The notes below the pieces were generated by a model. It ran no database searches, had not been told where the DNA came from, and was given only the letters and a program-made list of their open reading frames with translations. Positions 27,870-59,967 of a stretch of DNA of 64,000 bases are shown piece after piece (the first letter of the stretch is position 1; every line of letters starts with the position of its first letter). Source of the stretch: Candidatus Zixiibacteriota bacterium (GTDB lineage Bacteria > Zixibacteria > MSB-5A5 > GN15 > JAAZOE01); contig DAOUTW010000020.1 of assembly GCA_030668485.1 (NCBI GenBank), positions 1-64,000 of the forward strand, written 5' to 3'. The translations under genes were made by a program, and so were the position numbers.

Positions 27870-27884
27870 CGACAACCCTCCCAA

Positions 27885-38469: not shown

Positions 38470-38550
38470 TGATCGGATCGCACGCCTCTCTGAACTGTGT
38501 GATCGTGGCCCCTCGGATGCGATGTAGATGCGACTTTCCATGATGCGAAA
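38470..38550 (-). pseudogene. Relic of a STAS gene
   Basis: GCACGCCTCTCTGAACTGTGTGA and CCTCGGATGCGATGTAGATGCG match the 5' part of the STAS gene at 59472-59735 (CACACGCCTCTCTAAGCTGTG and CCTCGGATGCGATGTCTATGCG) with the intervening 40 bases lost. The frame is broken. It is part of the larger duplication that includes the promoter and activator sites. Confidence 0.7.
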
Positions 38551-38556
38551 AGTACT

Positions 38557-38572
38557 ACAAAATGCGTGCCAA
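38557..38572 (-). promoter_or_regulatory. Sigma-54 promoter, copy 1
   Basis: On the minus strand TTGGCACGCATTTTGT fits the -24/-12 pattern: GG, exactly ten bases, then GT. It points to the small barrel gene, with a leader of about 150 bases. The same sequence recurs at 59751-59766. Confidence 0.7.
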
Positions 38573-38671
38573 TGGACGTGGAGGGCCGCGCATTTCCTCT
38601 ATCTTATTGTTATTATACAAGTTATACCGATAACATTAGCGCCTGGGAGATAAAATCAGGTTTTGGCGGAC

Positions 38672-38726
38672 GATATTTCGGTCAGAACAAACCATATTTT
38701 CGGCCGTTTTGGTTGATATTTCGGCC
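38672..38726. promoter_or_regulatory. Triple activator-binding sites, copy 1
   Basis: Three direct repeats, GATATTTCGGTC (38672), CATATTTTCGGCC (38693) and GATATTTCGGCC (38715), spaced 21 and 22 bases apart, about two helical turns. They lie 100-170 bases upstream of the sigma-54 promoter, the usual distance for enhancer sites. Confidence 0.7.
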
Positions 38727-38878
38727 AGGTCGGCGAATTATTTAATCGTACACTTCGAGTTGGAATCGGCTGCCGTCAGTTGAAGCTTTTCTGTTGGCTA
38801 ACTCCATAACTTACATTGACGTATCAAGTTTGGTTAAGGCTCGAAAAACCAGGAGACGCCAAAATATCTTGACATCAA

Positions 38879-38907
38879 ACCGGAGTCTTAGTAAGTTATT
38901 ATACTCA
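38879..38907 (+). promoter_or_regulatory. Possible promoter of the cytochrome operon
   Basis: TTGACA (38879-38884), 17 bases, TAAGTT (38902-38907). The -35 box is perfect and the -10 box weak. The operon starts at 38936. Confidence 0.4.
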
Positions 38908-38935
38908 TGGATTCACTTCATTTTGATAGTCAGAG

Positions 38936-40225
38936 ATGAGTCGTAAGTATCGGCCTCTCTTCAACAGTCTGTTGCTTCACTTCCGGCCACGCACTGTACC
39001 GGAACGTACGCTTCAATTCACGCTGACATGGGGGCTGGGCGGCTCTGCGGTAATATTGACCATCCTACTATTCTGCACGGGCATTCTGCTCAAATTCGTT
39101 TACGAACCAGTTATTTCAACAGCTTATGAGTCAATCGTCAGTCTGCAACAGGATGTGCTGTTCGGACGGCTGGTACGTAACGTACACCACTGGAGCGCCA
39201 ATCTCCTGTTATTGATAGCGTTTCTTCATCTCATGCGGGTCTTCTTCACGGGTGCATATCATCACCCTCGCCGATTTAATTGGATAATCGGTTTCAGCAT
39301 GCTCCTGCTGGTGATGGCTTCTAACCTTACCGGATACCTGATGCCATGGGACCAATTGGCTTACTGGGCCGTTACTATAATTACAGGTATGTTGGAGTAT
39401 ATTCCCGTAGTCGGCCTCTGGCTTCAAACGATGATTCGAGGTGGTTCTGAAGTTGGCTCGAATACGTTATCGAATTTCTATGCTTTTCATACAGCAGTTT
39501 TGCCGATTGTACTTATGATTATTATGCCGTTCCACTTCTGGCGTATTCGAAAGGCCGGTGGATTGGTTATCCCCCGGGCGCCTGAGGAGGAGGACGAGAG
39601 CGAGATTGGTCAGCGAGTTCCCTCAATTCCCAATCTGCTGCTTCGCGAGGTAGTAATGGCATTGGTCGTAGTAGCCGGTGTCATGCTGTTTTCGGCTTTC
39701 GTTGATGCGCCTCTTCAAGCCAAGGCCAATCCTGGTCTGAGCCTCAATCCGGTCAAGGCTCCCTGGTATTTCGCGGGCATTCAAGAATTGCTGCTTCACT
39801 TTCACCCGCTGTATGCACTTTTCATCATACCATTGCTGACGCTGGGTGCGATGGTATTCCTGCCTTATGTCAATCAGATAGGACACTGTCCCGGTGTGTG
39901 GTTTATCTCTTATAGGGGTCGACGGACCGCGATTGCCGCTGCCATCACAGCGGGCATTCTTGCTCCCCTCGGAATTATAACCCACGAAATTCTTCGGGAT
40001 TCCACGTGGGTTCCAGATCTTCTGCCGATTGTTAGTGGCCTGATATCCTTCCTGATTGTCATAATATTGATCATCGCTATCGCATTTTTAATCAAAAGGC
40101 GCTATAGCGCTACCCGCGCGGAAATAATACAGTCTGTTTATGTCCTGTTGGTGATAGTTTATATTGTTCTGACAATCACCAATGTGTACTTTCGCGGTGA
40201 GGGGATGAAACTGGTGTGGCCATGA
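38936..40225 (+). CDS. Cytochrome b of a bc-type quinol oxidoreductase
   Basis: This 429-residue fused cytochrome b has both the b6 and subunit-IV halves. Haem ligands lie in the paired H-H-W ... F-L-H (helix B, near 82 and 96) and F-H-T ... P-F-H (helix D, near 183 and 197). The Qo motif is K-A-P-W-Y-F in place of P-E-W-Y, a form common in menaquinol-using lineages. Eight to ten membrane helices are evident, plus extra C-terminal spans. With the following Rieske and octaheme genes it would make a quinol:cytochrome c reductase with an unusual cytochrome partner. Confidence 0.92.
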   Translation: MSRKYRPLFNSLLLHFRPRTVPERTLQFTLTWGLGGSAVILTILLFCTGILLKFVYEPVISTAYESIVSLQQDVLFGRLVRNVHHWSANLLLLIAFLHLMRVFFTGAYHHPRRFNWIIGFSMLLLVMASNLTGYLMPWDQLAYWAVTIITGMLEYIPVVGLWLQTMIRGGSEVGSNTLSNFYAFHTAVLPIVLMIIMPFHFWRIRKAGGLVIPRAPEEEDESEIGQRVPSIPNLLLREVVMALVVVAGVMLFSAFVDAPLQAKANPGLSLNPVKAPWYFAGIQELLLHFHPLYALFIIPLLTLGAMVFLPYVNQIGHCPGVWFISYRGRRTAIAAAITAGILAPLGIITHEILRDSTWVPDLLPIVSGLISFLIVIILIIAIAFLIKRRYSATRAEIIQSVYVLLVIVYIVLTITNVYFRGEGMKLVWP

Positions 40226-40247
40226 CACGTTCACGGAGTGCTGTTAT

Positions 40248-40769
40248 ATGACTGAGAATCACAGGTCCATGAATGAACCCCTGGATTCTTCCCGGCGCAG
40301 CTTCCTAACCAAGCTTTGGCTTTTACTCGGAGGCGTCGCGCTGGCCGGGTATTCTTCCGCCGTTGTCGCGTTCTTGCGGCCCCGGAAGACTGGCGGGACA
40401 AGCGACGATTCGGCGCGGATTATTGAGGCGGGTCCGGTGGAGAGATTCCATCCTGATTCGGTTACTGCGTTCATAAGAGGCAGATTCTACCTTTGCCGAT
40501 TAGATGATGGTGGGTTTCTAGCCATTTCAAGCAAATGTACACATCTTGGGTGTTCCATTCCCTGGGTTGAGGATGAGAGAAGATTCGTATGCCCCTGTCA
40601 CGCATCTACTTTCGGCATTTCCGGCACTGTACTCAATTCACCGGCTCCTCGGCCCCTGGACCTGTATCCCGTGATAATTCAGAACAACATCGTGAGAGTA
40701 GATACTGGTAAAGCGATCCGACGAGGGAGATTCGAGGCCTCGCAGGTGGTCTATCCCAGAAAAATCTAA
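40248..40769 (+). CDS. Rieske iron-sulfur protein
   Basis: This 173-residue protein has a Tat-type N-terminus (S-S-R-R-S-F-L-T-K-L) and one membrane span serving as anchor. The 2Fe-2S ligands are C-T-H-L-G-C (near 110) and C-P-C-H-A-S (near 130). It shuttles electrons from quinol at cytochrome b to a c-type cytochrome. It is 22 bases after the cytochrome b gene. Confidence 0.95.
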   Translation: MTENHRSMNEPLDSSRRSFLTKLWLLLGGVALAGYSSAVVAFLRPRKTGGTSDDSARIIEAGPVERFHPDSVTAFIRGRFYLCRLDDGGFLAISSKCTHLGCSIPWVEDERRFVCPCHASTFGISGTVLNSPAPRPLDLYPVIIQNNIVRVDTGKAIRRGRFEASQVVYPRKI

Positions 40770-40785
40770 CTGGCTTGGTGCTGAT

Positions 40786-43083
40786 ATGACTGGTTGGAAG
40801 ATCACAGGTATTATCTCAACCTTTGTTATCATACTAGCGATACCATTGTATTTACTGAATGTGAACTACTTCTCGATCTCTGACGATTATGATCGCCCGG
40901 ATGCGACCAACCTTTTTGTCGGCAGCTTAAAATGCATGGATTGCCACCAGAAGGAATACGACTTGTGGCAAGAGTCTCACCACGATCACGCCATGGATGT
41001 GGCCGCGGTAGGTACCGTGCTCGGGGATTTTGATGATGCTACCTTTGAGATCTTCGGCGTCGCTTCCCGTTTCTACAAAAAGGATGACCGGTTTTATGTC
41101 CACACCCAGGGACCGGGTGGTGAAATGGGAGAATTTGAAATCACCCATGTTTTTGGCTGGTACCCCCTGCAACAATACCTCGTACCATTTTCCGGTGGAC
41201 GGTTGCAATGTTTACCATTGGCCTGGGATGTGAGAGAGGAGAGATGGTACCATCTTTATCCGGACGAACCACTCGAACACAATGATTGGCTCTACTGGAC
41301 CAACGCCGGACAGAATTGGAACGGTATGTGTGCCGAGTGCCATTCCACCAACCTGCAAAAGAACTATGACATGGAGAGCGACAGTTATCAGACTACCTGG
41401 TCCGAAATCGATGTGGGCTGTGAGGCTTGCCACGGTCCTGGATCGGGTCATGTCGAGTGGGGCCAGCTGCCCGATCTGGCCAGACCACAAGTGGGAAATT
41501 ATGAATTGGTAGTGAAAACCTCTGACCAGGAATCACGTGAAGCCGTTGAGCTCTGCGCTCCATGTCACTCACGGCGAGCTATTCTTGGGGACTATACTCA
41601 TGCGGAGAAGGATTTGCTTGACGTGATGCTTCCCCGTCTTCTCACAGAACCATTATATTATGCAGATGGACAGATCCTGGATGAGGTTTATGTTTATGGT
41701 TCATTCACCCAGAGCAAGATGTATCATCGCGATGTGCGCTGCAGTGATTGCCATGATGTACACAGCATCAAAACGGTGCGGGATGGAAACGATCTTTGTT
41801 TACAGTGCCATCGAGCTGCGGTATATGACACGAGCGTTCACCATCTCCACAAAATGAAAGGTGAACAGGGGGAACCGATCAGGTCTGCAGACGGACGCGT
41901 TCTATTTGAGGTCGGCACCGGTGCTGAGTGCGTGTTGTGCCACATGCCAGGACGCATTTACATGGGTAATGACTATCGACCGGATCACAGTTTTATAATA
42001 CCCCGCCCCGATCTTTCGGTAACGCTTGGAATCCCCAATGCTTGTAACCGCTGTCACATGGATCAGACCGCCAACTGGTCGGATGATTATATGACAAAGT
42101 GGTACGGTCCCGGGCGTCGACCTCATTTCGGTGTTATCCTTGACGCTGGACATAAACGGCAGCCCGAAGCTCGTGAGGAACTAATCCACCTTGCCGGCGA
42201 TCAACTCTACCCGGTAATCGTGCGGGCCACTGCCATTCAGCTTTTGAATGGCTATACTGCCGGTGAGGATACCGATGATCTGCTTTTGCTGGCGCTTATG
42301 GATGAGGAAGCCCTCATCCGTCGTACCGCCCTGGAGTTTCTGGCACTGTCCGATCCAGGGAGACAGAGCGAGCTTATCGTACCTATGCTCTATGATCCGG
42401 TAAGGGCCGTGCGTATCGAGGCCGCGGTTAGACTCGCGGGTGAGCCTGCCAAGCTGCTGCCGCCAGATGAATTTGAAATCTACCAGAAAGACCTGCAAGA
42501 GTACATGGCTGCGATGACATACTCCGGAGACTTCCCCTTCGGCCGATTTAATCTGGGAAATCTTAGTCTTGCCCTGGATCAAACCCAGAAAGCAACCCAA
42601 CACTACCGTGCGGCCATCAGGATCGATGACCAATTCTATCCAGCAAGGGTCAACCTCGCTATGCTTTATAATCAACTTGGCGAGAACTCAGAGGCGGAGA
42701 CGTTATTGCGTCAGGTTATTGCAGCACATCCGGAGTCTTACGACGTGGCCTATTCGTTGGCATTGTTACTCGCCGAGATGGGTAACTACAATGAAGCAGA
42801 GTTGTATTTTGAGAGGGCCGTCTCCGGCCTGCCGGATCGCCCCCGCATTCATTATAACTATGGGTTACTTCTGCAGCATCTGATGCAGGATGATCAAGCA
42901 GAGGAGGAAATGCAACGTGCCCGGCAACTGGAGCCTGATAATCTGGATTTTCTTTACGCGCTTGCGGATTTCTACTTAAAGCGGGGCAGACTCGATGAAG
43001 CCCGTGTGATGGCGCAGGAGATTATTGACAGACACCCAGATCAGCAAATCGGTTATGATATTTTAAATCATATCAACCAATAG
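40786..43083 (+). CDS. Octaheme cytochrome c with HEAT- and TPR-type repeats
   Basis: This 765-residue protein has an N-terminal membrane anchor (about 5-25). Eight CxxCH haem sites are seen at about residues 50, 182, 212, 257, 319, 338, 382 and 420, in a cytochrome c554-like arrangement. HEAT-like repeats (near 460-550) and about five TPR units (from about 570) follow. Haem-bearing TPR proteins of this type are known in planctomycete and related genomes but are poorly characterised. As the last gene of the cytochrome b/Rieske operon, it probably replaces cytochrome c1 or carries electrons onward. The TPR part could dock other proteins. Confidence 0.9.
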   Translation: MTGWKITGIISTFVIILAIPLYLLNVNYFSISDDYDRPDATNLFVGSLKCMDCHQKEYDLWQESHHDHAMDVAAVGTVLGDFDDATFEIFGVASRFYKKDDRFYVHTQGPGGEMGEFEITHVFGWYPLQQYLVPFSGGRLQCLPLAWDVREERWYHLYPDEPLEHNDWLYWTNAGQNWNGMCAECHSTNLQKNYDMESDSYQTTWSEIDVGCEACHGPGSGHVEWGQLPDLARPQVGNYELVVKTSDQESREAVELCAPCHSRRAILGDYTHAEKDLLDVMLPRLLTEPLYYADGQILDEVYVYGSFTQSKMYHRDVRCSDCHDVHSIKTVRDGNDLCLQCHRAAVYDTSVHHLHKMKGEQGEPIRSADGRVLFEVGTGAECVLCHMPGRIYMGNDYRPDHSFIIPRPDLSVTLGIPNACNRCHMDQTANWSDDYMTKWYGPGRRPHFGVILDAGHKRQPEAREELIHLAGDQLYPVIVRATAIQLLNGYTAGEDTDDLLLLALMDEEALIRRTALEFLALSDPGRQSELIVPMLYDPVRAVRIEAAVRLAGEPAKLLPPDEFEIYQKDLQEYMAAMTYSGDFPFGRFNLGNLSLALDQTQKATQHYRAAIRIDDQFYPARVNLAMLYNQLGENSEAETLLRQVIAAHPESYDVAYSLALLLAEMGNYNEAELYFERAVSGLPDRPRIHYNYGLLLQHLMQDDQAEEEMQRARQLEPDNLDFLYALADFYLKRGRLDEARVMAQEIIDRHPDQQIGYDILNHINQ

Positions 43084-43104
43084 GCGTGACGAAAAGTCCA
43101 ACAT

Positions 43105-44304
43105 CTACTCTGTTTTCTGGAAATCGTAGTTGGATATCGTTACTTCAATATCCTCACCCGGAATCCGGACATTGGCTCCTCTGATCTGCATGAAACCGTC
43201 ATCAGCCGCTACGTAAGTGACCTCGCCTTGCAGCGCTTTCTCCTCCATGAACGTCTTGAAGAGCAGCCTTCGCGGACTCATTGTCGAGTTGTCAAACCAG
43301 ATGGTCACCCAGTCGTTAAGACCAATCACGTCAATATCCTCGAATTGAATCGTTCCTGCCATGTCATCTGAGGCATGTGAGGCGACAGCCCGCTCAAAGA
43401 ACTTCTGCGACAGTTCAGGATTCGGCAGCGAATATGCGGTGAGTAATTTTTGTATACCTGCCACCAGCTCATCCATCTTTTTCAACTTCTTTTCTTTTAA
43501 TTTTCCACGAATACCGCGTCCACCTTCATCCTGCTCTCCTATTGGCTCCTCCGTCTGATTTCCAAGGTCATCGTGCCGGATCAACAACAGATTATTCGAT
43601 TTGACGTCACCACCTTTGGAGACTGTGACTTCACGAGTCCAACCGTATTCACCCTGGAGCTTCAAGTTCTTATTTGTGGCATTCTGAAAAACGCTGAGTG
43701 CAGTATTTTTATCAGAATATCCGACATTCGCCAAGATTGGCATAGTGGCAGGCTCGGCCAGATAAAATTCCATGAGCAAGCCCTCGGCGACTTCAATCTG
43801 GTCCCCGGGGGTGAGCACAGCAATAGCCGAACCAGTGGCAACCATTCGCTTGGCCATCGCGGCTCCCCCAACCACTTTGCCAATAGCGGCCTTGGCCACC
43901 ATCTTTTTAAGTTCCTTGGATTTCTCACCCTCTACCCCCCACACGACAGACTTGATGGGGACAGAAGATCCCTCAGTGTGAATGCTATCGAGCTGGAGTT
44001 CCAGTTCCGCTTTTCCGGCGACCCGTCTCGCCTTTTTCGCTTTAACGACAATGCCAGTCGCTGTGTCACCCCGTTTGGCTGTCAGCGAGCCATTGAAAAC
44101 AAGGTCTGTAACGAGGACCGCTGCAAAACGATTACCTGATTTAATATCTCCGGTACGGAGGGTGGATGTCGGCGCCACCACCAACCGTGAGCCCGCTGGC
44201 GCTGTGACCTGCTGCTGGGACAGTGCCGGCGGCGCGAGAGTCAGAAAAGCCAATGCGAAGAGCGCGACTCGAACCGCGACTGACGTAACTGTATACACAA
44301 ACAT
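43105..44304 (-). CDS. Exported protein with outer-membrane-cluster repeat domain
   Basis: This 399-residue protein has a signal peptide (to about A-L-S-Q-Q). The N-terminal half is a beta domain of unknown type, with an internal glycine-rich hydrophobic stretch (A-I-G-K-V-V-G-G-A-A). The C-terminal part (from about 265, R-G-I-R-G-K-L-K) is clearly homologous to the whole of the 231-residue protein at 54692. Shared blocks are K-K-M-(D/E)-E-L, D-M-A-G, T-I-W-x-D-x-S-T and an L-Q-G-E/V-D-G-T strand. GGAAAGGAATAGATT before the ATG gives a good start. It ends the long minus-strand cluster. Confidence 0.7.
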   Translation of the reverse strand: MFVYTVTSVAVRVALFALAFLTLAPPALSQQQVTAPAGSRLVVAPTSTLRTGDIKSGNRFAAVLVTDLVFNGSLTAKRGDTATGIVVKAKKARRVAGKAELELQLDSIHTEGSSVPIKSVVWGVEGEKSKELKKMVAKAAIGKVVGGAAMAKRMVATGSAIAVLTPGDQIEVAEGLLMEFYLAEPATMPILANVGYSDKNTALSVFQNATNKNLKLQGEYGWTREVTVSKGGDVKSNNLLLIRHDDLGNQTEEPIGEQDEGGRGIRGKLKEKKLKKMDELVAGIQKLLTAYSLPNPELSQKFFERAVASHASDDMAGTIQFEDIDVIGLNDWVTIWFDNSTMSPRRLLFKTFMEEKALQGEVTYVAADDGFMQIRGANVRIPGEDIEVTISNYDFQKTE

Positions 44305-44319
44305 AATCTATTCCTTTCC

Positions 44320-45543
44320 CTACTTGATTTTGATTGAGAAATCCAGCATGAGGCTCTGAAAAGTGTCACCATCGTTGAGGCCTATTTGATTGTGAAAATA
44401 AGATAATGTCCCGGCGATATCCTGATCCAACGCGAACTGGAGACTAATCAAATGTCCTTTGGTATCCGTGCTACCATCGCCAAAATTGGAGTCACTGAAC
44501 GTACCATAGAGAGCATCTTTCTCAACACGCCGATAATTGTATCGGCACTGCCAGGATCCCCGTTTGTCTAACTTACCATATATGAGCCCAGCTAACCAGC
44601 CAATGTTGTCAGCACTAAGATAAGTATTAATGGCCAGATCTGCTATCAGGACTATCGGCCGCCCGTGCCAGTAAAGTGATGCTTCGGTGAACAGCTCCAG
44701 TTCGTGGTATTCAGCAGCATGGCGCTCGTCTGTACCATCGAAATACGAGGAGTTGCCAAAGAAATCATTGCCGAATAGTGGTGTTCTATCCTTAATTTCC
44801 GTTAGGTGGAAATATCCGATACCGAATTTCAGCAGTTCCTTGTCATCCTGCAGAGAATAACCGCCGATGAATTGCCCAACCAGCAATTCAGACTCAACGT
44901 CGTTCTCCCTTTCCTTCAGGATATACATGCCGCCGAGCATCTTGGTCTCAATGGAACCGATCCTGCTCGAGACAAAGGCGGTTAATCCTTCTGGACGAAG
45001 GTCATTATCCCACAGTAGCTCGGTTGCGCCGGGCCGATAGACAGGCAAAATAACCTTGCCTGCCTGAAAAGTAAACATCTTCTTGAAGATAGGCGGTTTG
45101 TACTCACCGTAGGCCAGATCAAAGGTAACGTTCTTGCTGGAGAAGGCATCGGTTAGTGTTTGGTTGGACGAAACCAAGTCATCTGAACCTGACGCAAGCT
45201 GAAAAACAACCGCGGCATCGTCACGGATCAATACCTTGATGCCGAACCTCGCTCTTATACGATGGCGTACCCGCTTGACATTATCGTCATCATCACGGTC
45301 AGACACATGGTAACGGTATAGGAAGTCAGCGGTAAATCTAAATTTGCCGGTCTCTTCTGCCCCACCTTCGCTAGCCTCGCGACTGTCATACGCCGTAACT
45401 TGTTTGAGACCATTCCCAGACATCTGCCCGGATGTAGGTTCCTGAGCTTTCAATTCTGTAGTCCCAGCCCATAGACCAAAGAAAAGGATCGCAGCTATCA
45501 CAGGGAGTCGACAGCTTGCCAAAAGAAGTTGCAGACTATTCAT
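44320..45543 (-). CDS. Putative porin
   Basis: With the start at ATG 45543 (MNSLQLLL) the product has 407 residues and a signal peptide ending near L-K-A-Q. The signature R-V-R-H-R-I-R-A-R-F-G followed by A-S-G-S-D-D and E-Y-K-P fits the Porin_5-type barrel family. About sixteen strands are likely. It lies 15 bases upstream of the previous gene. The solute is unknown. Confidence 0.82.
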   Translation of the reverse strand: MNSLQLLLASCRLPVIAAILFFGLWAGTTELKAQEPTSGQMSGNGLKQVTAYDSREASEGGAEETGKFRFTADFLYRYHVSDRDDDDNVKRVRHRIRARFGIKVLIRDDAAVVFQLASGSDDLVSSNQTLTDAFSSKNVTFDLAYGEYKPPIFKKMFTFQAGKVILPVYRPGATELLWDNDLRPEGLTAFVSSRIGSIETKMLGGMYILKERENDVESELLVGQFIGGYSLQDDKELLKFGIGYFHLTEIKDRTPLFGNDFFGNSSYFDGTDERHAAEYHELELFTEASLYWHGRPIVLIADLAINTYLSADNIGWLAGLIYGKLDKRGSWQCRYNYRRVEKDALYGTFSDSNFGDGSTDTKGHLISLQFALDQDIAGTLSYFHNQIGLNDGDTFQSLMLDFSIKIK

Positions 45544-45758
45544 GCCTACTAACATGATTCGACAAAGAACCCACAGATCAGAATGAGGACTATTATGTTG
45601 CATGAATTTCTCCATAGAAATGCTGGTTCTCATCAAAAGCAACCCCATTGTATCCTCCTGCACAGTCTGGCGAAGAGTCTCCTTCGTAGCATGTTTCCAT
45701 ATACGAAGGTTTATGCATTATGCTTTCTCCGTAACCCATGTCCACCCATACTTCGTTC

Positions 45759-47144: not shown

Positions 47145-47191
47145 TCCAATTCTCTCCAGCGCCTTATTTGGGGCTGGCCTTTGCCACAAGA

Positions 47192-50092: not shown

Positions 50093-51433
50093 TCAACTTT
50101 TGCGCGTCTCTAATTTTCTATTCTCTATACCTATCATGAACGCGAGAACAAGCCAAATGGCAACCAAGGCGAGGCAGGTCACTGCGAAATGGCTAATACT
50201 AAACGACAACCATGTCACTCCGATGAAAACGAGGCCTGCCGACAGAACATCGCCCGCCCTCACAAAGAAGGAGTCAATGGCAACTTTTGCCTTGTATTTT
50301 TCCTCCCTTGTAGTAGGTAGGAAGAGTATGTGTCGAACCGTATTATTTAGGGAATAGTCAGTGGCGTTTTCAGCCGTCTTTCCCCATCTTATCACCAGTA
50401 GGATTGGGAATAGGGCCATTGACACGTATGTGCCCAGAGCTATTATCGGTAGCGCCATTATCGCAAACCTGACACCAAAATATTTCAAAATCCGGGATAC
50501 AATCAGCAGTTGCAGCAACAGGCCGACAGAGCCTACAATTGTATAAAAATCGGCATAGAATTTTCCGATAAAGGCCTTATCGGCATCGGCAGCAGCTCCC
50601 GGCGCCGCAGCCAATTCCGCCGCAGCTTCTTCAACACCTCGACCAAGAATATATTCACCGGTGGTGTTCACAAAATTACTGACGAGTATCAGTAGCGCGA
50701 TCATCAGGAGATACTTATTCCGGAAGACCACCTTCATGGCCCCATCTTTACTCATTGGGGGCTCTTCCTCAACCGGTTTATCCGGAGTGTCCGCTTTTGG
50801 TTCTGACTCCACCCGGGAAATAATATAATTTGTCAGGACAAGACTTACCAAAAGCACACCGGCCGAAACCAGAAGCAAGTTGTATACGCCGACCAGGTCC
50901 AGTATCAATCCGGCCAGCATGGGGCCAAAGACGCCGCCAGCCGAGGCCCCAAAGGCGAGCAGAACAAAAAGGCGTTTACCCTGTTCGGGCGTGTAGACAT
51001 CGTTGGCAAATGACCAGAACTGTGCGATAACCACCAGGCTGAAGATTCCTACCCACAAGAAATAGACGATTCCATTCCAGGGTCCAATGATGACGAGCAT
51101 CAGGTAAAAGACAATGATACAGCCAAAGAAGAAAAGTGTCACAGAATTGATTAATTTGCGCCGAGGCAATATTGTAGCCAGCCACCCGAAAACTTGTACG
51201 ACACCTAAGAGCAGGACCACTTGAATGGCTGAGGCATAGCTTTTTAGTTCAGCTCCGCCGCCGCTAAGGATGAGCGGTTCGCGAACAACTTTTGCAATCA
51301 AATACGCTGTAAGGATCAGGAAGATATTCAGAGTCATAAGCAGGGCTCTTTGAGCCTCTCCCGCCTTCACTTCGGTGAAAATGCCAAGCAATTTCTCCAG
51401 AGGACTCTTCGAACCTTCTATCGACCTGGCCAT
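50093..51433 (-). CDS. Nucleotide-translocase-like carrier A (Npt1/Npt2 family)
   Basis: This 446-residue membrane protein with about twelve spans starts at MARSIEGS. It resembles the ATP/ADP and nucleotide translocases of Rickettsia and Chlamydia. Shared features are E-V-K-x-G-E near the N-terminus, K-V-V-R-E-P-L-I, the W-S-F-A-N-D-V-Y-T-P-E-Q-G-K-R-L-F block near 155, and K-A-K-V-A-I-D near 390. In free-living bacteria the substrate is unproven. The start lies one base after the stop of its paralogue (TAATATG). Confidence 0.82.
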   Translation of the reverse strand: MARSIEGSKSPLEKLLGIFTEVKAGEAQRALLMTLNIFLILTAYLIAKVVREPLILSGGGAELKSYASAIQVVLLLGVVQVFGWLATILPRRKLINSVTLFFFGCIIVFYLMLVIIGPWNGIVYFLWVGIFSLVVIAQFWSFANDVYTPEQGKRLFVLLAFGASAGGVFGPMLAGLILDLVGVYNLLLVSAGVLLVSLVLTNYIISRVESEPKADTPDKPVEEEPPMSKDGAMKVVFRNKYLLMIALLILVSNFVNTTGEYILGRGVEEAAAELAAAPGAAADADKAFIGKFYADFYTIVGSVGLLLQLLIVSRILKYFGVRFAIMALPIIALGTYVSMALFPILLVIRWGKTAENATDYSLNNTVRHILFLPTTREEKYKAKVAIDSFFVRAGDVLSAGLVFIGVTWLSFSISHFAVTCLALVAIWLVLAFMIGIENRKLETRKS

Positions 51434-51434
51434 A

Positions 51435-52793
51435 TTATTTCTCCTCTGTGACCTTGACCAATGCCGCTTTGGCCACAAGCATCCGGTTTGCCTTGCCTAC
51501 CCGGTAGGCCAGTACCAACCAGATTGCTGCGAAGCAGATATTTAATATGGCGAATTGTCTGATACTCATGGCGAAGTAGGTCACGCCCACAAAAACCAGG
51601 GCGGCCGCCAAGATATCACCCGCCTTGAATACAAATGAATCTATCACTATTTTCCCAATGTACTTCTCCTCCCAGGTGGTCGGGAGAAACAGGATATGCC
51701 TGGTTGTACTGTTAATTGATGTGTCACTAGCATTCTCAATGAGCTTCATCCAGCCTATCACGGCTGCCACGGTTACAATAGAAATCAGGAAGTATCCTCC
51801 GAATGCGATCACAGGCGACACCATAATGGCGAAGATGATTCCCATGTACTTCAGTATGCGGGAGACCACGAGCACCTGCATGAGTAGACTTGCTATGCCC
51901 AATATCAGATAGAAGGTCGAGTAGAACTTGCCGATAAACATTTCCGTGTTAAAACCAGCCCCAATAACAGCGGCCTGCTGGGACGCGACATCTTCAAGGC
52001 TTTTGTTCAGGATATATTCTCCGGTTGAGTTTACCACATTGGTGAGAAGGACAACCGCCGCGATCGCCAGTAGATACTTGCTCTTAAAAACCAGCTTAAA
52101 AGCCATTATCCCCTTCGCCGATGGCGGCTTGATTGCGGAATCTGATGAAGTAATCGCACCAGAAGCCCCACTTACTCGTTTATCGACACGGACAGCAAAC
52201 ACGAGGCCAAGGAGCAGGATACTATTGACTACGAATCCAATGCTCAGCAGACTCAGGTATTCCAGTAGGACACGGGCAACCATCGGCCCAACCACAGCTC
52301 CTGCAGATGCTCCAAAACCCAGCAAAACAAACAACCTTTTCCCCTGTTCAGGCGTGCAAACGTCATTTGCATAGGCCCAGAATAAGGCAATCATAACTAA
52401 TGCAGGCAACCCGCCCAGGAAATAGAACACCAGCTTTCCCCCATTATGGGCATAATAAAGAATGGGGAGCAACGTCATGAGGCCAATTACAGATAGAAAC
52501 ATAATCTTGATTAATCGTCGCCGGGAGAAACGTACCGCTAACCGCGAGTAGACATTCAAGATACCAACCAATACTATTGTCTGCACTGCGGCCGTGTAGT
52601 TCTTCATTTCCGCGCCAACGTCGGCAATGATTAGTGTCGTGCGGATAACCTTGATGATGATAAACGCCATCAGGATTAGAAAGATGCCCACAGTCATCAA
52701 CAGAATCGTTTTGCCCTCACCCGGCCGCACTTCGGTAACCGTGCTGAGAAAACGCTCCAGTCTACTTCTGGAATCTTCATACCTGGCGGACAT
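51435..52793 (-). CDS. Nucleotide-translocase-like carrier B (Npt1/Npt2 family)
   Basis: A 452-residue paralogue of the next gene with the same plan and the near-identical central block W-A-Y-A-N-D-V-C-T-P-E-Q-G-K-R-L-F. The pair is translationally coupled and could form a heterodimer, or the two could handle different substrates. A third copy once existed, as shown by the relic at 35404. Located 54 bases after the hydrolase gene. Confidence 0.82.
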   Translation of the reverse strand: MSARYEDSRSRLERFLSTVTEVRPGEGKTILLMTVGIFLILMAFIIIKVIRTTLIIADVGAEMKNYTAAVQTIVLVGILNVYSRLAVRFSRRRLIKIMFLSVIGLMTLLPILYYAHNGGKLVFYFLGGLPALVMIALFWAYANDVCTPEQGKRLFVLLGFGASAGAVVGPMVARVLLEYLSLLSIGFVVNSILLLGLVFAVRVDKRVSGASGAITSSDSAIKPPSAKGIMAFKLVFKSKYLLAIAAVVLLTNVVNSTGEYILNKSLEDVASQQAAVIGAGFNTEMFIGKFYSTFYLILGIASLLMQVLVVSRILKYMGIIFAIMVSPVIAFGGYFLISIVTVAAVIGWMKLIENASDTSINSTTRHILFLPTTWEEKYIGKIVIDSFVFKAGDILAAALVFVGVTYFAMSIRQFAILNICFAAIWLVLAYRVGKANRMLVAKAALVKVTEEK

Positions 52794-52847
52794 TCTACAT
52801 CTCCCTGTGTAAGGACCGGAAACTGATCAATCCGGATTCCTTCTCAA

Positions 52848-54632
52848 TCACGCTTCTCTTGATTGTACTTTGGGCACCAGCAGAAAGGAATCGTGTCTCC
52901 CCCCGAAGTGGATGACATGTTTGCCAATATTGCAGTCCACTGATTTTTTGAAGATCGGAGAGCGAATAATCTCGTCGGAGGCTATGATAAGCTGAAGGGT
53001 TTCTCCAATCGAAAAGAAAGTGCTACTGGGATATATTTCAATATCGACAAGCACGATTTCGCCTGCCTTCAACTTCTGTTCCGAAGTCCCTTTCTGCACC
53101 GGGTGCCATTCGGTTGATTCTACAGGATCAAGCTCACGTCGGGAGACTTTGCAATAACCCCGCGTAACCATATCCTCTATATTTCCAGCCGAACCGTGGA
53201 AACAAACAGTCTTCCCATCTTGATCCAGTTTATTGACAGCTATAAACATTGCCATATCATCCGGGGATATTTCTCCCGTCTTTTCGGGACGGGCCTCTAC
53301 CCAAATTCTTAGTTTCATATAGCCACTCAACTCAGTGTTTTCGGTAAATTTGAAATTGAATAATGCTCTCCCCTTTTTGGCTGGGTACACCAACTCCATT
53401 TGTTTTTCCGGTTTTTCAAGCGACAGGGATTGTGGTTGTTCACCTAAATAAAGTTTGGTGTATTGGGTACGAGCGAGTGGCCATTCATTTTCATGACGAA
53501 CCTCATGGATATTATCGCGGCTGGATCGGACCTCGAGTCGTACAGGGGGCATATCCAGAAAACCACTGGAGGTATCATCTTTTAGAAAACAGTCCATGAA
53601 GTCTTTGGTAATCTTTTGCACTTCCGGCGAATAGTAGGCGACCCATTTGCCGGTGCGATGTGTGTACACCCATTTATGTTTCGAGTTTGCCTTTTCAAAT
53701 GCCCGGAATGAACCCATAGTATGCAAGCCATGGTCAGAGAATGAGGCACAAACCAGCATGGGAATGGTAATCTCTTCCAGCTTGGCTGCTTTGGCCTTCC
53801 AGAATTCATCGTAGAAAGGGTGGTTTTTTAAATAGTCTGTAGCGATGCACCCCTCGAATTTTGCAAAGTCTTCTACTGTGCCGTTAATTGATGGTTTTAC
53901 TTCCGTATTCCACCAAAAGACAGGAAAGAGGCCTTCCGGTACCCCGCCAAAGCAAAAGATATCACGATACGGGTCAGTAAGTCCTTCCCAGGGAGAGATG
54001 CAACATAATGAGGGCGGCGGTCCTCCATAGGCCTGGCAGGCGGCCACATGGAATTGGGATATGGCCAGGAAACTAACTCCATTGAGCCCTACTTTACCAC
54101 TACACCAGGGCTGTTTCGCAATCCATTCAATAGCCTCGTAATAACATTTTCCCTGATGTTCAGAGAATGCGGATGGTGGACCTTCACTGTTAGCGTAACC
54201 CGGCAAATTCATATTAACGACGGCATATCCGGCAGGTACCCAGAAATTCGGATCGGGTGATTCCCAGCTTGTCAATTTGGAGAAAACCGGTTTTCCTCCG
54301 GCCTGGGGGAGCAGACGATATTGTTGAGGCGGGCCTCCCAACGGAGTTTTCTTAAGAGCCGGGGTGAGACGATTGTCATAAGGGTGGGCGCACATCACTA
54401 CCGGAACTTTTTCGTTTTTCTCCACCGTTTTCTTTGATCGATAAATATTGGCCGTTACATAAAATCCTTCGTTCATCGGAATCTTAACATCATACTCACA
54501 CAGAATATCCGGATCAGGTTCGGTAAGCTCACATTGAGGATTAAAGAGCTGACCGCTCTTGACGGCATGGCCTAATATGGGACCGACGGCCTCGAATGTC
54601 CGAATTATGTTTGCAATTTCTTTATTCATCAC
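52848..54632 (-). CDS. CocE/NonD-family (S15-like) hydrolase
   Basis: This 594-residue alpha/beta hydrolase has no evident signal. The nucleophile serine lies in G-L-N-G-V-S-F-L-A (near residue 185), and the acid/His region is near F-S-D-H-G-L-H (near 298). The C-terminal jelly-roll seen in CocE and X-Pro dipeptidyl peptidases runs from about 360. It would cleave esters or acyl bonds in the cytoplasm. Its place in a sulfatase/porin cluster suggests breakdown of an imported esterified compound, but that is inference. Confidence 0.85.
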   Translation of the reverse strand: MMNKEIANIIRTFEAVGPILGHAVKSGQLFNPQCELTEPDPDILCEYDVKIPMNEGFYVTANIYRSKKTVEKNEKVPVVMCAHPYDNRLTPALKKTPLGGPPQQYRLLPQAGGKPVFSKLTSWESPDPNFWVPAGYAVVNMNLPGYANSEGPPSAFSEHQGKCYYEAIEWIAKQPWCSGKVGLNGVSFLAISQFHVAACQAYGGPPPSLCCISPWEGLTDPYRDIFCFGGVPEGLFPVFWWNTEVKPSINGTVEDFAKFEGCIATDYLKNHPFYDEFWKAKAAKLEEITIPMLVCASFSDHGLHTMGSFRAFEKANSKHKWVYTHRTGKWVAYYSPEVQKITKDFMDCFLKDDTSSGFLDMPPVRLEVRSSRDNIHEVRHENEWPLARTQYTKLYLGEQPQSLSLEKPEKQMELVYPAKKGRALFNFKFTENTELSGYMKLRIWVEARPEKTGEISPDDMAMFIAVNKLDQDGKTVCFHGSAGNIEDMVTRGYCKVSRRELDPVESTEWHPVQKGTSEQKLKAGEIVLVDIEIYPSSTFFSIGETLQLIIASDEIIRSPIFKKSVDCNIGKHVIHFGGRHDSFLLVPKVQSREA

Positions 54633-54691
54633 AATCTCTCAAAGATCGTTATCACTCCCTAATTACTTAGTTGACCAATCCTCAACGGTCA

Positions 54692-55387
54692 TCATAGCTG
54701 CTTGATAAAGTCAAAACGCTCGCTCTTAATACTGATTTTCTGAGATGATATATTAAGCACGGATATAGAGGCGGTGGTCGGGCCACCTTTGATGGCCTTA
54801 TAATCGATTGTACCGTCTACAATGGTTTTCTCGTCGAGTGGCGCCTTAATCGTGAGTTTTTGATTGAGCCCGGTTGATGGATCAACCCAGATGGTCAGTT
54901 CATCGCCAGCAGCAAGGACGCTTTTGCCATGGATTCTCTTCATCCCTGCCATATCGCCCATGCCATCCTGAAATGCGGCATTCTCGAAGAAGTCCACCAG
55001 CTGACCTTTGGACATGACAACATAGGAACCTTGCAGGCGTACTACCGCTTCGATCAGTTGGCTGAGTTCCTCCATCTTTTTCTTCTGTTTTTTCCCCCTC
55101 ACACCACGCTTTTTGTCAACATGAGATTCATTGCTTATTGTGGTATGCTGAAGTTTTCCTTTGGCGTCGAAACGTGCCTGAATAAGCATCGTCATCATCG
55201 GCTTTTCGTCCTTGGTGACCACCGTCCGCGTTTTCCAGCTGTAGGTCTTGAGCGCATCTGTATTCTTTTGCTGTACTTCAGAATATTTTAATGCGCGCTG
55301 GGCCGGATCGGTCTCCTGCGCTGTCACCGGGGACACAAATGCAAGTGCGAAGGCGATGACGATCATGACCTGTATTAAGTATTTCAT
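54692..55387 (-). CDS. Periplasmic protein with cluster-specific domain
   Basis: This 231-residue protein has a signal peptide (to V-T-A-Q-E). A helical region with a strongly basic loop (K-K-R-G-V-R-G-K-K-Q-K-K-K-M) follows, then beta strands. Its whole mature length is homologous to the C-terminal half of the protein at 43105. I know no named family. Two such proteins at the two ends of one cluster suggest a shared structural task in it. Confidence 0.7.
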   Translation of the reverse strand: MKYLIQVMIVIAFALAFVSPVTAQETDPAQRALKYSEVQQKNTDALKTYSWKTRTVVTKDEKPMMTMLIQARFDAKGKLQHTTISNESHVDKKRGVRGKKQKKKMEELSQLIEAVVRLQGSYVVMSKGQLVDFFENAAFQDGMGDMAGMKRIHGKSVLAAGDELTIWVDPSTGLNQKLTIKAPLDEKTIVDGTIDYKAIKGGPTTASISVLNISSQKISIKSERFDFIKQL

Positions 55388-55439
55388 ATCAAATTCTCCT
55401 CAATCTGATTTACCCAAGATGTTCATCTTTCCTGCATCT

Positions 55440-56348
55440 TTAGAAGAACCATCGGAACCCTACCTCAGTGGTAAATTCACGATCTGTGGACTCTGAATTA
55501 TCAATTCCCCATCCGGGTTTGATATATGCGATTCTGCCCGGTGCCAGCATCTTGCCGAGCTCAACACCAATCCATAAGGAAAAATCTTCAGTCTCGAAAT
55601 CGTAGATTGGCTGAAATTCGGGCAGCAAAAAGAGCCCGCCCCACGGAGGACCCGGTTTCGTCAAGGGCTGCATTAAGTAAATCTTTCCGACGTACCGTGA
55701 TGTCTTCGGGCCGGGGTGCTCCCTATAAACATCAAAATAGTAAAGGTTCAATGCAGCGATGAATCCATGAAAAGGCGTATCGAAAATAAATCCGGCTATT
55801 GGGGCGAACAGAAGCGAATTGCCGGCTAACGCACTATCCGTTGCCGTGGGGAGAACAAAATCGGTACCGAGCAGCACATTAGGAATCCCGGTATAAATGA
55901 ACTTTATATCCACATCTCCAACGCCAATACCATCGGTACCCTCATCAACTCCCGGAATATCACTAAAATCACGATACTGCGCGAGCGGCAGTTCAAAGAA
56001 CATGCCCATCTTAGGGGCGAAGGGAACAGTGCCAGCGGCGGTCAGATCTTGTTGTATCATTCCGTTGTCCAGAGTCGTATATCGATAAAAGGGCGTCCAC
56101 TTGAGAGTAAAATCGCGCGGATCAGTTCCGGTCTTATTTCCTTCCACGGCCTTTTCTATCCTCTTCTCTTTAGCGGCCGCTTTTGTTTCTTCGTGTTTTT
56201 CTATCTGTTCTTGAGATACACCCGGTGTGTCCGGTTTTTCCTGGGCAACCGCCGCCGGTAGGCCAAGAAATGTGACCATCGCAACTGACAAAAAGACAAG
56301 AAGGAAACCGTCCAGCATCCGGTGTTTCAGTTTTTTTCTGCCTTTCAT
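55440..56348 (-). CDS. Outer-membrane barrel of the MetA-pathway/transporter type
   Basis: This 302-residue protein has a signal peptide (to about A-V-A-Q-E). A charged helical linker (K-H-E-E-T-K-A-A-A-K-E-K-R-I-E-K) is followed by a barrel that ends V-G-F-R-W-F-F. G-V-G-D-V-D-I-K-F-I-Y near 140 is typical of the phenol MetA-like transporter fold. The linker could span the periplasm or bind peptidoglycan. Nineteen bases separate it from the next barrel gene upstream. Confidence 0.72.
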   Translation of the reverse strand: MKGRKKLKHRMLDGFLLVFLSVAMVTFLGLPAAVAQEKPDTPGVSQEQIEKHEETKAAAKEKRIEKAVEGNKTGTDPRDFTLKWTPFYRYTTLDNGMIQQDLTAAGTVPFAPKMGMFFELPLAQYRDFSDIPGVDEGTDGIGVGDVDIKFIYTGIPNVLLGTDFVLPTATDSALAGNSLLFAPIAGFIFDTPFHGFIAALNLYYFDVYREHPGPKTSRYVGKIYLMQPLTKPGPPWGGLFLLPEFQPIYDFETEDFSLWIGVELGKMLAPGRIAYIKPGWGIDNSESTDREFTTEVGFRWFF

Positions 56349-56367
56349 TTTAAACCTCCATCAATTC

Positions 56368-57402
56368 TTAGTGTCCCTGCATAAGCTTCTCGGCGTTTAT
56401 GTTGTCCTTATTCCAGAGGTAGACAAACTGAAGCCGGCCGACACTTGTTTCCAGATTCTCATCGCCAAACACATTCGAGGTGAATTCCGTGCGTATCATG
56501 ACATTGTGCGTAACGCTATAATTCAGGGTGAAGCCGAGAATTCCGATATCGAGCTTGTCGCCTACCTCCAGAGTGTCCATTTTTGACTGGAAGCCTTGCT
56601 GGTAAAGCATATCCAACGAGCCAAAGAGGCCGGGGGCAAAATCGTGAGTCAGATGCGCCTCGAGTGAAAACAAGGGATCATTTTTCAATGTCTTTCCCAT
56701 AAAATCACAGTTATCAGCAAAGAGCCAGACGGAGGGAGTCAGTTCGAAACTCGACATGTAACCGGGAGAGAATACGCCGAAATGCCATTTGAAGGGAAGC
56801 GCGACACGGCCATACCAGCGGTTTAGCCCCAAGTTGATCAGCTTATCGTTGTCGTACTGACCCACTGGGAATGCGACCATCACCGCCGCATCGAGGCTAA
56901 CCGTCGGTTCGTAGTTCAGCATATCGACGTTGCTGATGAGCCTTGGGGTGCCGAAAAGATTAGTCACAAACTGTACACTGGGATCTGCAAACCCAGAGCT
57001 TGACTGGCTGAACGCTAAGTCGGGATCCATGCCCGGAGGCAAAAACTCCGATGGTACGCTAGCGTCTACGCTGGCGTTGACACTCCCCCCAATGACGTTA
57101 ACAGCCAGCACCGACGGTCGTCTGAACAACGTCATGTGGCGTGCCCAGGTACCGAAAAAGACGTTGGCGTCAATGTACGAATTCGGATAAATGTATTTGT
57201 CGGGCGCAAATGCCACCGAACCTGATGCTCCGATGTTCATGGACAGATACTGAAATGAGAACATTTGCGTTCCCGATCTTGTGTTCCAGTAGGCGCGAGC
57301 GCCATCGTCCTGGGCAAGAACAGGCACGGCAAACGATAAGATGCTGACCAGGGTTACAAGAAGGGCCAGCAAACGGGTATATCTGTTATTTTTTTTCATC
57401 AC
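56368..57402 (-). CDS. Outer-membrane transporter of the SphA/MetA type
   Basis: This 344-residue protein has a signal peptide (to P-V-L-A-Q-D). D-P-S-V-Q-F near 142 and V-A-F-P-V-G-Q-Y-D near 175, with the N-L-G-L-N-R-W-Y block, fit the phenol MetA-pathway transporter family, which forms outer-membrane channels for hydrophobic or aromatic solutes. It follows the sulfatase gene by nine bases and should be coexpressed. Confidence 0.8.
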   Translation of the reverse strand: MMKKNNRYTRLLALLVTLVSILSFAVPVLAQDDGARAYWNTRSGTQMFSFQYLSMNIGASGSVAFAPDKYIYPNSYIDANVFFGTWARHMTLFRRPSVLAVNVIGGSVNASVDASVPSEFLPPGMDPDLAFSQSSSGFADPSVQFVTNLFGTPRLISNVDMLNYEPTVSLDAAVMVAFPVGQYDNDKLINLGLNRWYGRVALPFKWHFGVFSPGYMSSFELTPSVWLFADNCDFMGKTLKNDPLFSLEAHLTHDFAPGLFGSLDMLYQQGFQSKMDTLEVGDKLDIGILGFTLNYSVTHNVMIRTEFTSNVFGDENLETSVGRLQFVYLWNKDNINAEKLMQGH

Positions 57403-57411
57403 TAACCCTCC

Positions 57412-59211
57412 TTATTTATTCATAGCTTCAAGAAGTTTTTGGTAGGGGATCGCTTCCATACCGCGAACGGGCGGGTAGTTATCAAACTCCGGCACCCGAT
57501 TGGGGAGCGCTTTACTCGCTTGCTCAAAGGGTGATCTTGCTCCAATGATTACCCCGTTCGTCTTTACGTACTCATCCCACAAAGCGATAAGCTCTGCCCT
57601 CTTCTCGGGGAACTTGTCGGAGAGGTCATACTGCTCACCCAGATCCTCGGCAAGGTTGAATAGCTGCCAATCTTCAGAGCCGAACGGTTCATATAGCCAG
57701 CTGATCTTCCAGTCACCCTGCCGAATCGCCCGGTTACCGAATAATTCCCATCCCAGCCAGTCTGCTGATGTTCGTGGTGATTGCGTCTTGCCTTCAAGCA
57801 TCCCTACCCATGACTTACCCTGTACAGGGGCAATTTCACGACCCTTGTAGGTAGAGGGATGCTGGATACCGGCCAGCTCCAGCACGGTTGGTGCGATATC
57901 CATTACATGGAGTACCGCCTCTTTGTTCCATCCGCCGGCGCCTTTCACGCCGGGGCCACTTACGATAAGCGGGGAGCGGGTACCGCCTTCTGCGAGCTGT
58001 CCTTTCCAAAGGCGAAAGGGAGTCATGGATACCTGTGCCCATGCCGGCCCGTATTCGGCGTAAGTGCCTTTCCGGCCAATGGAATTGTGCCCGTTTTCGG
58101 CAAAATTATTCATGGCGTGAAGAAATCCAAACGTTCCCGGTTGCCCTGCCATCATTCCTCTCAGGTCGTTTCCTTCAGCCCCGTTATCAGAGATGAAGAT
58201 AACGATGGTGTTGTCGTACTCACCTATCTCCTTCAGATAATCGAATACCCGCCCGATCTGATCGTCCATGTACTCAACCATTGCGGCATAGATTTCCATC
58301 TTCCGCCCCGACGCCACGCGCACCGCCGGCGCGAGTCCCGTGGACCGCGGCAGGAAAAAAGCGCGGTCAGCAGTATTGGCGCCTTTATCTACGATGCCAA
58401 GTTCCTGCATCCGCGCCAGGCGCTGGTGTCGGATACCATCCCAGCCTTCGTCATAGCGGTTCTTATACCGGCGTAACCATTCATCCGGCACTTGAAGCGG
58501 GCCGTGGGGGGCCGTATAGGCCATGTAGGCAAAGAAGGGCTTGCCGTCTGCGCGCCCTTCTTCAATGAACTGGAGAGTCTTGTCGGTGTAGGTCCTCGAC
58601 GAGTAAAAATTCTTGGGCAGTTTCTTGACGGGGCGACCGTCTTCTGTATACGGCATTTTTGGTATCTGCCACTCAATATTCCAACCGTTGTTGAAGTGGC
58701 TGCCACCGCCGACAAGGGTCGAGAAATCACGCTCAAAACCGCGAGCGTGTGGGATTTGGTTCGGTTTCATACCCAAATGCCATTTACCGGCCATGTAGGT
58801 GTGATAGCCATTGTCACTCAGAATCTCGGCGACCGAAGCTACACGCTCGTTGAGCGCACCCTCGTATCCGGGCTGGCCCACCTGGTTAGGAGCTGCCAAT
58901 TCACCCATGTTACCCAGGCCGGCAACATGGTTGTCCGTTCCGGAAAGCAGCATGGACCGGGTGACTGAGCATGTCGGGCTCACATAAAAGTTGGTGTAGC
59001 GTACACCACTATTCGCCAGATTGTCCAATACCGGCGTGTTGATCTCACCTCCGTAACACCCCATGTCCGAGTAGCCCATGTCATCGGCCACAATTAGGAG
59101 GATATTGGGTCTCTTGCCCTCCTGGGCGGCCACATCGGCTGCTGTAAAACCGATGGCGAATCCCACAAGCAACAAGGCTGTGAATGAGATTGTCAATGGA
59201 TTATTTTTCAT
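57412..59211 (-). CDS. Arylsulfatase with unusual active-site motif
   Basis: GGAGGAG before ATG 59211 sets the start; the product has 599 residues and a signal peptide. Metal ligands are at A-D-D-M-G (near 42), with further D-N-G and H ligands (G-K-W-H-L-G). The formylglycine site, normally C-x-P-x-R, reads C-S-V-T-R here (Cys81), so the proline is replaced by valine. The protein would cut sulfate from sulfated aromatics or sugars in the periplasm if matured. It is the first gene of the long minus-strand cluster. Confidence 0.9.
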   Translation of the reverse strand: MKNNPLTISFTALLLVGFAIGFTAADVAAQEGKRPNILLIVADDMGYSDMGCYGGEINTPVLDNLANSGVRYTNFYVSPTCSVTRSMLLSGTDNHVAGLGNMGELAAPNQVGQPGYEGALNERVASVAEILSDNGYHTYMAGKWHLGMKPNQIPHARGFERDFSTLVGGGSHFNNGWNIEWQIPKMPYTEDGRPVKKLPKNFYSSRTYTDKTLQFIEEGRADGKPFFAYMAYTAPHGPLQVPDEWLRRYKNRYDEGWDGIRHQRLARMQELGIVDKGANTADRAFFLPRSTGLAPAVRVASGRKMEIYAAMVEYMDDQIGRVFDYLKEIGEYDNTIVIFISDNGAEGNDLRGMMAGQPGTFGFLHAMNNFAENGHNSIGRKGTYAEYGPAWAQVSMTPFRLWKGQLAEGGTRSPLIVSGPGVKGAGGWNKEAVLHVMDIAPTVLELAGIQHPSTYKGREIAPVQGKSWVGMLEGKTQSPRTSADWLGWELFGNRAIRQGDWKISWLYEPFGSEDWQLFNLAEDLGEQYDLSDKFPEKRAELIALWDEYVKTNGVIIGARSPFEQASKALPNRVPEFDNYPPVRGMEAIPYQKLLEAMNK

Positions 59212-59471
59212 TATACTCTCCTCCTCTTGTAGAGGCAAAGTTTATGGTTTTCGAATTAGTATATCTTTTCCTTTCGATGAGTAGATGACATGCGGTCAAC
59301 TCAATCGAATTGGAAGTCAGAAAATTGCTAGATTGCCTGATTGAAATTCGTTTTCCCATCTTAGGTTTCCATCCTGCTTTATCTTCCCTTTTATGTTTTT
59401 GTCAAGTGAACCGTTGGGCCGACCTCCGCGCCCAGGCAAATCCTTCTTTGAAAGATCAGACTCGGATTTAT

Positions 59472-59735
59472 TCAATATTCTCCAGTTGTGTCGTCGAGGA
59501 GCAACTGAATAAACGGTGAAGCCCTGCGGATTTCCGCTCCCTTCTCACCCAGCGCCCGAATGAAGTCGATTCCCGCGGAGTCAAGGGACCGCAGGTTTGA
59601 GAGATCCAATACAAATGCATCCTTAATCTGATCACACGCCTCTCTAAGCTGTGTGACCGCGGCCCGGGAAAGTCGCCCGGTGATGAAAACAACGGTTACC
59701 GGACCCTCGGATGCGATGTCTATGCGGATTTCCAC
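59472..59735 (-). CDS. STAS-domain anti-sigma factor antagonist
   Basis: This 87-residue single STAS domain begins with a GTG start (M-E-I-R-I-D). The phosphorylatable serine is in L-R-S-L-D-S-A-G-I (Ser53), as in SpoIIAA/RsbV. These proteins bind anti-sigma kinases when unphosphorylated. No anti-sigma kinase is in the window. The RsbU-like phosphatase at 35529 is a candidate for reactivating it. A sigma-54 promoter ends only about five bases from the GTG start. The leader would therefore be extremely short, unless the true start or TSS differs. Confidence 0.85.
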   Translation of the reverse strand: MEIRIDIASEGPVTVVFITGRLSRAAVTQLREACDQIKDAFVLDLSNLRSLDSAGIDFIRALGEKGAEIRRASPFIQLLLDDTTGEY

Positions 59736-59750
59736 GATGCGAATAGTATT

Positions 59751-59766
59751 ACAAAATGCGTGCCAG
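59751..59766 (-). promoter_or_regulatory. Sigma-54 promoter, copy 2
   Basis: Minus strand CTGGCACGCATTTTGT: GG, ten bases, GT, identical in the core to the copy at 38557-38572. It points to the STAS gene. Confidence 0.7.
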
Positions 59767-59866
59767 TGGACGCGGATGCTTGCGCATCTTGGTTATCTTA
59801 TTGTTAACGTGTAAGTTATACCGATAGCATATAATGACTATGAGGACTGGTCAGGTTATGGCGGCC

Positions 59867-59921
59867 GATATTTCGGTCGGCATGAAACATATTTTCGGCC
59901 ATTCTGGTTGACATTTCGGCC
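59867..59921. promoter_or_regulatory. Triple activator-binding sites, copy 2
   Basis: GATATTTCGGTC (59867), CATATTTTCGGCC (59888) and GACATTTCGGCC (59910), spaced 21 and 22 bases exactly as in copy 1. They lie 100-170 bases upstream of the sigma-54 promoter and just before the activator gene, so the activator may also control itself. Confidence 0.7.
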
Positions 59922-59967
59922 AACGTGCTGCATTAACGTGCCGTATTAATGCATAGGAGCAAAAAAT

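Follow-up and report, generated by a model that had tools for sequence, protein, structure and literature searches.

Organization of the locus

The window, a stretch of 64,000 nucleotides from a Candidatus Zixiibacteriota contig, carries near its right end the gene of an FhlA-like sigma-54 activator and, divergent from it, a STAS-domain gene followed on the minus strand by a sulfatase gene and an outer-membrane barrel-like gene (Table 1). The region between the activator and STAS genes holds a predicted sigma-54 promoter and three enhancer half-sites (copy 2), and a direct repeat of it (copy 1) stands about 21 kb away, upstream of another barrel gene and, behind this, of a gene for an RsbU-like phosphatase with a SpoIIE domain. 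The activator matches Sigma54_activat (PF00158) with 229 bits, possesses PF02954 (HTH_8) at its C-terminus and bears GAFTGA in its sequence. The STAS_2 and STAS scores of the divergent gene are 22.9 and 20.1 bits, under the cut-offs of 29.2 and 22.6, respectively.

Table 1. Features of the two control regions and of their surroundings (positions in the window)
Feature	Position	Strand	Basis or remark
Second collinear duplicate fragment, 47 nt, intergenic	35405..35451	+	Matches 50693-50739 at 83%, E 3e-7
Terminator-like hairpin, 11-bp stem	37573..37597	-	Between barrel gene and RsbU-like phosphatase gene
Outer-membrane beta-barrel gene downstream of copy 1	37688..38395	-	Pfam OMP_b-brl, below curated cut-off
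STAS 5'-end relic of copy 1	38472..38541	-	ATG kept; 40-bp deletion shifts frame; similarity stops at codon 37
Sigma-54 -24/-12 element, copy 1, TGGCACGCATTTTGT	38557..38571	-	Consensus scan; identical to copy 2
Three enhancer half-sites, copy 1	38673..38726	+	Spacing 21 and 22
Outer-membrane barrel-like gene	55440..56348	-	Homologs directly behind same site type in L006 and L009
Sulfatase gene, likely in the same operon as STAS	57412..59238	-	STAS-sulfatase order kept in Woeseiaceae L197
STAS-domain gene	59472..59735	-	GTG start at +5 of predicted transcript; weak Pfam STAS_2/STAS matches
Sigma-54 -24/-12 element, copy 2, TGGCACGCATTTTGT	59751..59765	-	Consensus scan; predicted +1 at 59739
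Three enhancer half-sites, copy 2 (ATATTTCGGTC, ATATTTTCGGCC, ACATTTCGGCC)	59868..59921	+	Spacing 21 and 22
FhlA-like sigma-54 activator gene (GAF repeats, AAA+ with GAFTGA, Fis-type HTH), 880 aa	59968..62610	+	Pfam

Within its GAF repeats, the activator gene is internally duplicated in tandem over about 530 nt (60471-61563), with 75-78% DNA identity; the homologous activator L005 has a single GAF region, whereas that of Woeseiaceae appears to be divided between two contigs at the GAF repeat. Behind the activator, a short ORF at 62743-63117, read by eye, resembles the C-terminal part of an AI-2E-type transporter and is apparently a truncated gene. Elsewhere in the window, a TPR-protein gene (14920-15936) possesses a 141-nt tandem-type repeat with copies 62-78% alike, an 82-nt direct repeat (24076-24312, 95% identical) contains a GC-rich palindrome, CACCCCGG..CCGGGGTG, and two adjacent paralogous genes for ADP/ATP-carrier-like (TLC) transporters occupy 50093-52793. 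At 26333-29200, a tRNA-Asn lies beside a large serine recombinase (26370-27884) and a phage-type integrase (28112-29200) at a GC dip; because these signs occur together, the region to their right may be a genomic island, and no att repeat of the tRNA-Asn was found up to the contig end.

Duplication of the control region

Copy 1 (38472-38727) is a direct repeat of copy 2 (59626-59922) with about 79-86% identity. Their local alignment reaches a score of 245, compared to at most 28 in 100 shuffles, and a repeat search delimits a block of 130 nt at 81% and another of 72 nt at 86%. Both -24/-12 elements lie on the minus strand and agree at 15/15 positions, and the half-sites start at 38673, 38694 and 38716 in copy 1 and at 59868, 59889 and 59911 in copy 2. 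Thus, the base alignment bears out what the initial annotation had described, a duplicated control region in the form of a same-strand repeat with a sigma-54 promoter and three sites at preserved spacing. That annotation overlooked the truncated STAS start of copy 1 and the TTGT at -12. Its further claim, that the intervening sequence has drifted, holds for 38572-38600, only 62% identical, and for 38637-38655, which cannot be aligned with copy 2, but not for 38601-38636, which is 83% identical. This last segment, with its counterpart at 59795-59830, is a CAATNNGATA block between the sites and the promoter that is kept in 5/7 of the regions compared here (copy 1, copy 2, L148, L009 and L006); it resembles an IHF/HU-type bending site and could serve as one, which is offered as a lead only.

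The pattern TGGCACGN4TTGY has nine exact occurrences in the 4.5-Mb genome, two of them being copy 1 and copy 2. The search of the whole genome for further three-site arrays, by DNA, pattern and profile, gave no third copy. The pair pattern TTTCGG..ATTTCGG has 40 matches in the genome; all but the two arrays were taken as background, without case-by-case inspection, since coding sequence often contains TTTCGG. Besides copy 2, no occurrence of CCGATATTTCGG in the same genome has a sigma-54 promoter nearby, and two of these occurrences are terminator-like palindromes.

Conservation in other lineages

Close homologs of the activator occur in other phyla with 60-80% identity. In Phycisphaerae L009 and Woeseiaceae L006, the activator is followed by CCGATATTTCGGC with a sigma-54 element and then by a homolog of the window gene 55440-56348, with identities of 54% and 65%, respectively. 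At locus L148, in the genome of Desulfobacterales L007, the triple array is complete and occurs with a sigma-54 element and a STAS gene whose identity to the window counterpart is 50%. A sequence profile built from five regions (copy 1, copy 2, L148, L009 and L006) retrieves two loci outside its training set: L191, in the genome of Desulfobacterales L008 (E 4e-10), with triple array, promoter and STAS gene, and L197, in the Woeseiaceae genome (E 4e-5), where the sulfatase and STAS genes are followed by the promoter with its array and then by the divergent activator, in the order of the window. The offsets of the sites from the promoter element are -151 to -153, -130 to -132 and -109 to -110 in copy 1, copy 2, L148, L191 and L197, and the -24/-12 element of copy 2 can be aligned with its counterparts in Desulfobacterales, Phycisphaerae and Woeseiaceae. 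The comparison with relatives, run for the parent copy 2 alone, thus finds array, promoter and spacing kept; this conservation across phyla, together with the activator, supports the earlier proposal of a sigma-54 promoter controlled by the adjacent activator gene. Judged by these alignments, copy 2 is almost certainly a conserved sigma-54 module and a real control system.

Among 395 genomes of the Desulfobacterales phylum, the pattern GGCCGAAATN10-14GGCCGAA yields one true array, L148, the rest being judged chance matches by their spacer sequence, without one-by-one inspection. No array is detectable in the genomes of the activator homologs L005 and L022, a DNA search for the promoter block finds none in 60 relatives, and matches to the activator on plasmids are at FhlA-level identity only. 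A search of the phylum with the N-terminal 184 residues of the activator gave no match in 131 other genomes, and footprinting within the phylum is therefore impossible. Because of this absence and of the 60-80% identity to activators of other phyla, the module was probably acquired horizontally. No STAS/sulfatase sigma-54 module was found in the literature searched, and that of copy 2 is apparently undescribed, being newly recognised here. In a Desulfobacterales genome, a pyruvate-formate-lyase-like enzyme with its likely activase lies about 3.5 kb past the STAS locus (L163, 4434-7790), an observation of interest because the activator is FhlA-like.

Promoter class and predicted transcript start

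The consensus used for sigma-54 places the -24 GG and the -12 GC 10 nt apart, as TGGCACGN4TTGC. The -12 motif of copy 1, copy 2 and L191 is TTGT, a weaker form, instead of TTGC, while L148, L197, L009 and L006 possess the consensus C; all remaining consensus positions agree in the window copies. The genome encodes rpoN once, as seen by a single Sigma54_DBD match (E 5e-56), and the three sites lie at -110 to -153 upstream of the promoter element, inside the range of about 80-200 bp expected for sigma-54 activators.

With transcription predicted to begin 12 nt past the -12, the STAS start codon falls at +5 of the transcript in copies 1 and 2, L148 and L191 and at +6 in L197, implying, if the predicted starts are right, that the STAS mRNA is nearly leaderless; leaders are longer in L009 and L006, where the targets are barrel genes. 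Such a start would be odd, and together with the TTGT it could indicate that the -24/-12 element is a chance match and that the array belongs to some other regulator acting on ordinary promoters. However, the position of the element is kept in seven regions from at least four lineages, and the elements adjoin, or share a genome with, close homologs of the GAFTGA activator, which makes a chance match extremely unlikely. Regarding direction, each array also lies upstream of plus-strand genes and the sites are roughly palindromic, as would suit autoregulation of the activator by copy 2 and control of the cytochrome b operon (38936-43083) by copy 1. This arrangement is hardly more plausible than the chance match, as there is no plus-strand sigma-54 element near either copy, and the conserved element and geometry point to the STAS side in L148, L191 and L197. 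A minus-strand sigma-54 promoter facing the STAS gene is thus the preferred reading of copy 2.

Origin and possible activity of copy 1

Copy 1 still begins a STAS reading frame, MESRIYIASEG.., comparable to VEIRIDIASEG.. in copy 2. The frame in copy 1 stops about 20 nt short of the barrel-gene ATG. Because this STAS start is truncated and frameshifted, copy 1 is read as the derived duplicate and copy 2 as the parent. The intergenic fragment at 35405-35451 matches part of an ADP/ATP-carrier-like gene (50093-51478) in the same order and on the same strand as copy 1 and copy 2; this collinearity suggests a larger duplication, since decayed, of which copy 1 could be the last remnant. No larger duplicated flanks are detectable directly beside copy 1.

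The initial annotation suggested that both copies are functional. This is supported for the control by copy 2, while for copy 1 there is a modest signal of selection, by which it may be active. Promoter and core sites differ at 1/49 positions between the copies, compared to 11/70 in the dead STAS piece (one-sided Fisher p = 0.012, optimistic because the element boundaries were defined after the sequences had been seen); against all other alignable positions, p = 0.0006. The comparison with the STAS piece is the fairer one, because a dead copy 1 would gather changes in both classes on its own branch alone, and the test rests on two sequences because no close relative carries copy 1. Downstream, the barrel gene 37688-38395 has its own strong SD, GGAGGAAATTATG, and no usable sigma-70-type promoter was seen for it. 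Against its control by copy 1, a 45% barrel homolog in a relative lacks a promoter of the copy 1 kind.

A dead copy 1, the last recognisable trace of a larger, decayed duplication of the interval at about 50.7-59.9 kb, holding promoter and sites intact by chance and youth alone, would account for the truncated and frameshifted STAS piece, for the collinear fragment at similar divergence and for flanks without further similarity. This is a serious possibility but the less probable one, given the unequal changes just described, a net spacing change of 1 bp in about 165 bp, and an array directed at a gene that has a good SD and for which no alternative promoter was seen. We therefore somewhat favour a copy 1 that is still active, on the modest support of these comparisons.

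The phosphatase, which had also been placed under copy 1, lies 237 bp beyond the barrel gene, and this gap and the hairpin make its control by copy 1 a weak proposal; because the terminator-like hairpin precedes its gene, the phosphatase is probably separate from the copy 1 transcript. The same two features count against a partner-switching circuit in which the activator co-regulates STAS from copy 2 and the phosphatase from copy 1. Such a circuit would fit the LDSAG motif of the window STAS protein, with its phosphorylatable serine, and the SpoIIE domain of the phosphatase; however, no RsbW-like kinase was found among the ORFs scanned, and the circuit is unlikely to be conserved because the orthologs in L148, L191 and L197 have D or Q in place of the serine. 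Altogether, we regard it as improbable. Compared to STAS anti-sigma-factor antagonists of the SpoIIAA/RsbV type, the window protein shares the STAS signature and LDSAG, but its family scores are weak, its orthologs lack the serine, and its gene would stand under a sigma-54 activator with a start 4-5 nt past the predicted transcript start.

Comparison with known activators

The activator shares 41% identity over 563 aa with Escherichia coli FhlA and a recognition helix near-identical to GAAQRLGLKRTTLLSRMKRLGI of FhlA; it scores 413 bits against an FhlA equivalog cut-off of 830. The published FhlA site is CATTTCGTACGAAATG (PMC4987338), which has the ATTTCG hexamer in common with the window sites, with the half-site order reversed. 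As in the formate hydrogenlyase regulon of E. coli and Salmonella, a GAF-AAA+-Fis HTH activator is associated with sites upstream of sigma-54 promoters. However, the window activator has extra GAF repeats, its half-sites read CGAAAT..ATTTCG instead of ATTTCG..CGAAAT, and its targets would be STAS, sulfatase and outer-membrane genes, formate genes being absent here. A second relevant system is NorR, whose gene is divergent from its target. The norVW control region is likewise served by a GAF activator with three enhancer sites, all of them required (PMC4987338), but NorR recognises GT(N)7AC, and its sites, targets and presumably its signal differ from those of the window module.

Proposed mechanism and significance

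Sigma-54 activators in general reach Esigma54 through a DNA loop and hydrolyse ATP to open the promoter. In the window, the FhlA-like activator would bind the three GGCCGAAAT-type sites, which lie upstream of the minus-strand promoter 59751-59765 at a distance of about 110-153 bp, and oligomerise on the array; DNA looping would then bring it to Esigma54, and its ATP hydrolysis would open the promoter. Transcription is predicted to start about 4 nt ahead of the STAS start codon (at 59739, and at 38545 in copy 1), yielding STAS and probably also the sulfatase and outer-membrane genes behind it. The copy 1 array would most likely put the barrel gene 37688-38395, and probably not the phosphatase, under the same activator. 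We infer activator binding, the direction of control and the extent of the operon from sequence comparison. The explanation as a whole, in which a horizontally spread sigma-54 module has its control region in copy 2 and copy 1 is a derived duplicate with a surviving array, is considered likely. Against it count the weaker TTGT at -12, although L191 shares it, the half-site order opposite to that of FhlA, and the genomes of L005 and L022 with an activator homolog but no detectable array.

The case has a wider bearing. As a natural example, it would concern the duplication of a complete enhancer-plus-promoter cassette and not of a single site, with a parent copy for which the conservation across phyla gives independent support. 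The analysis also names a candidate sigma-54 regulon, composed of the activator, STAS, sulfatase and outer-membrane genes, and raises the question of sigma-54 transcripts with almost no leader. The most general form of the proposal, for which we see an even balance, is that of a mobile sigma-54 module in which a GAF activator and a rigid three-site array drive a nearly leaderless STAS mRNA, and whose cassette, once copied before an unrelated outer-membrane gene, may have enlarged the regulon in one step.
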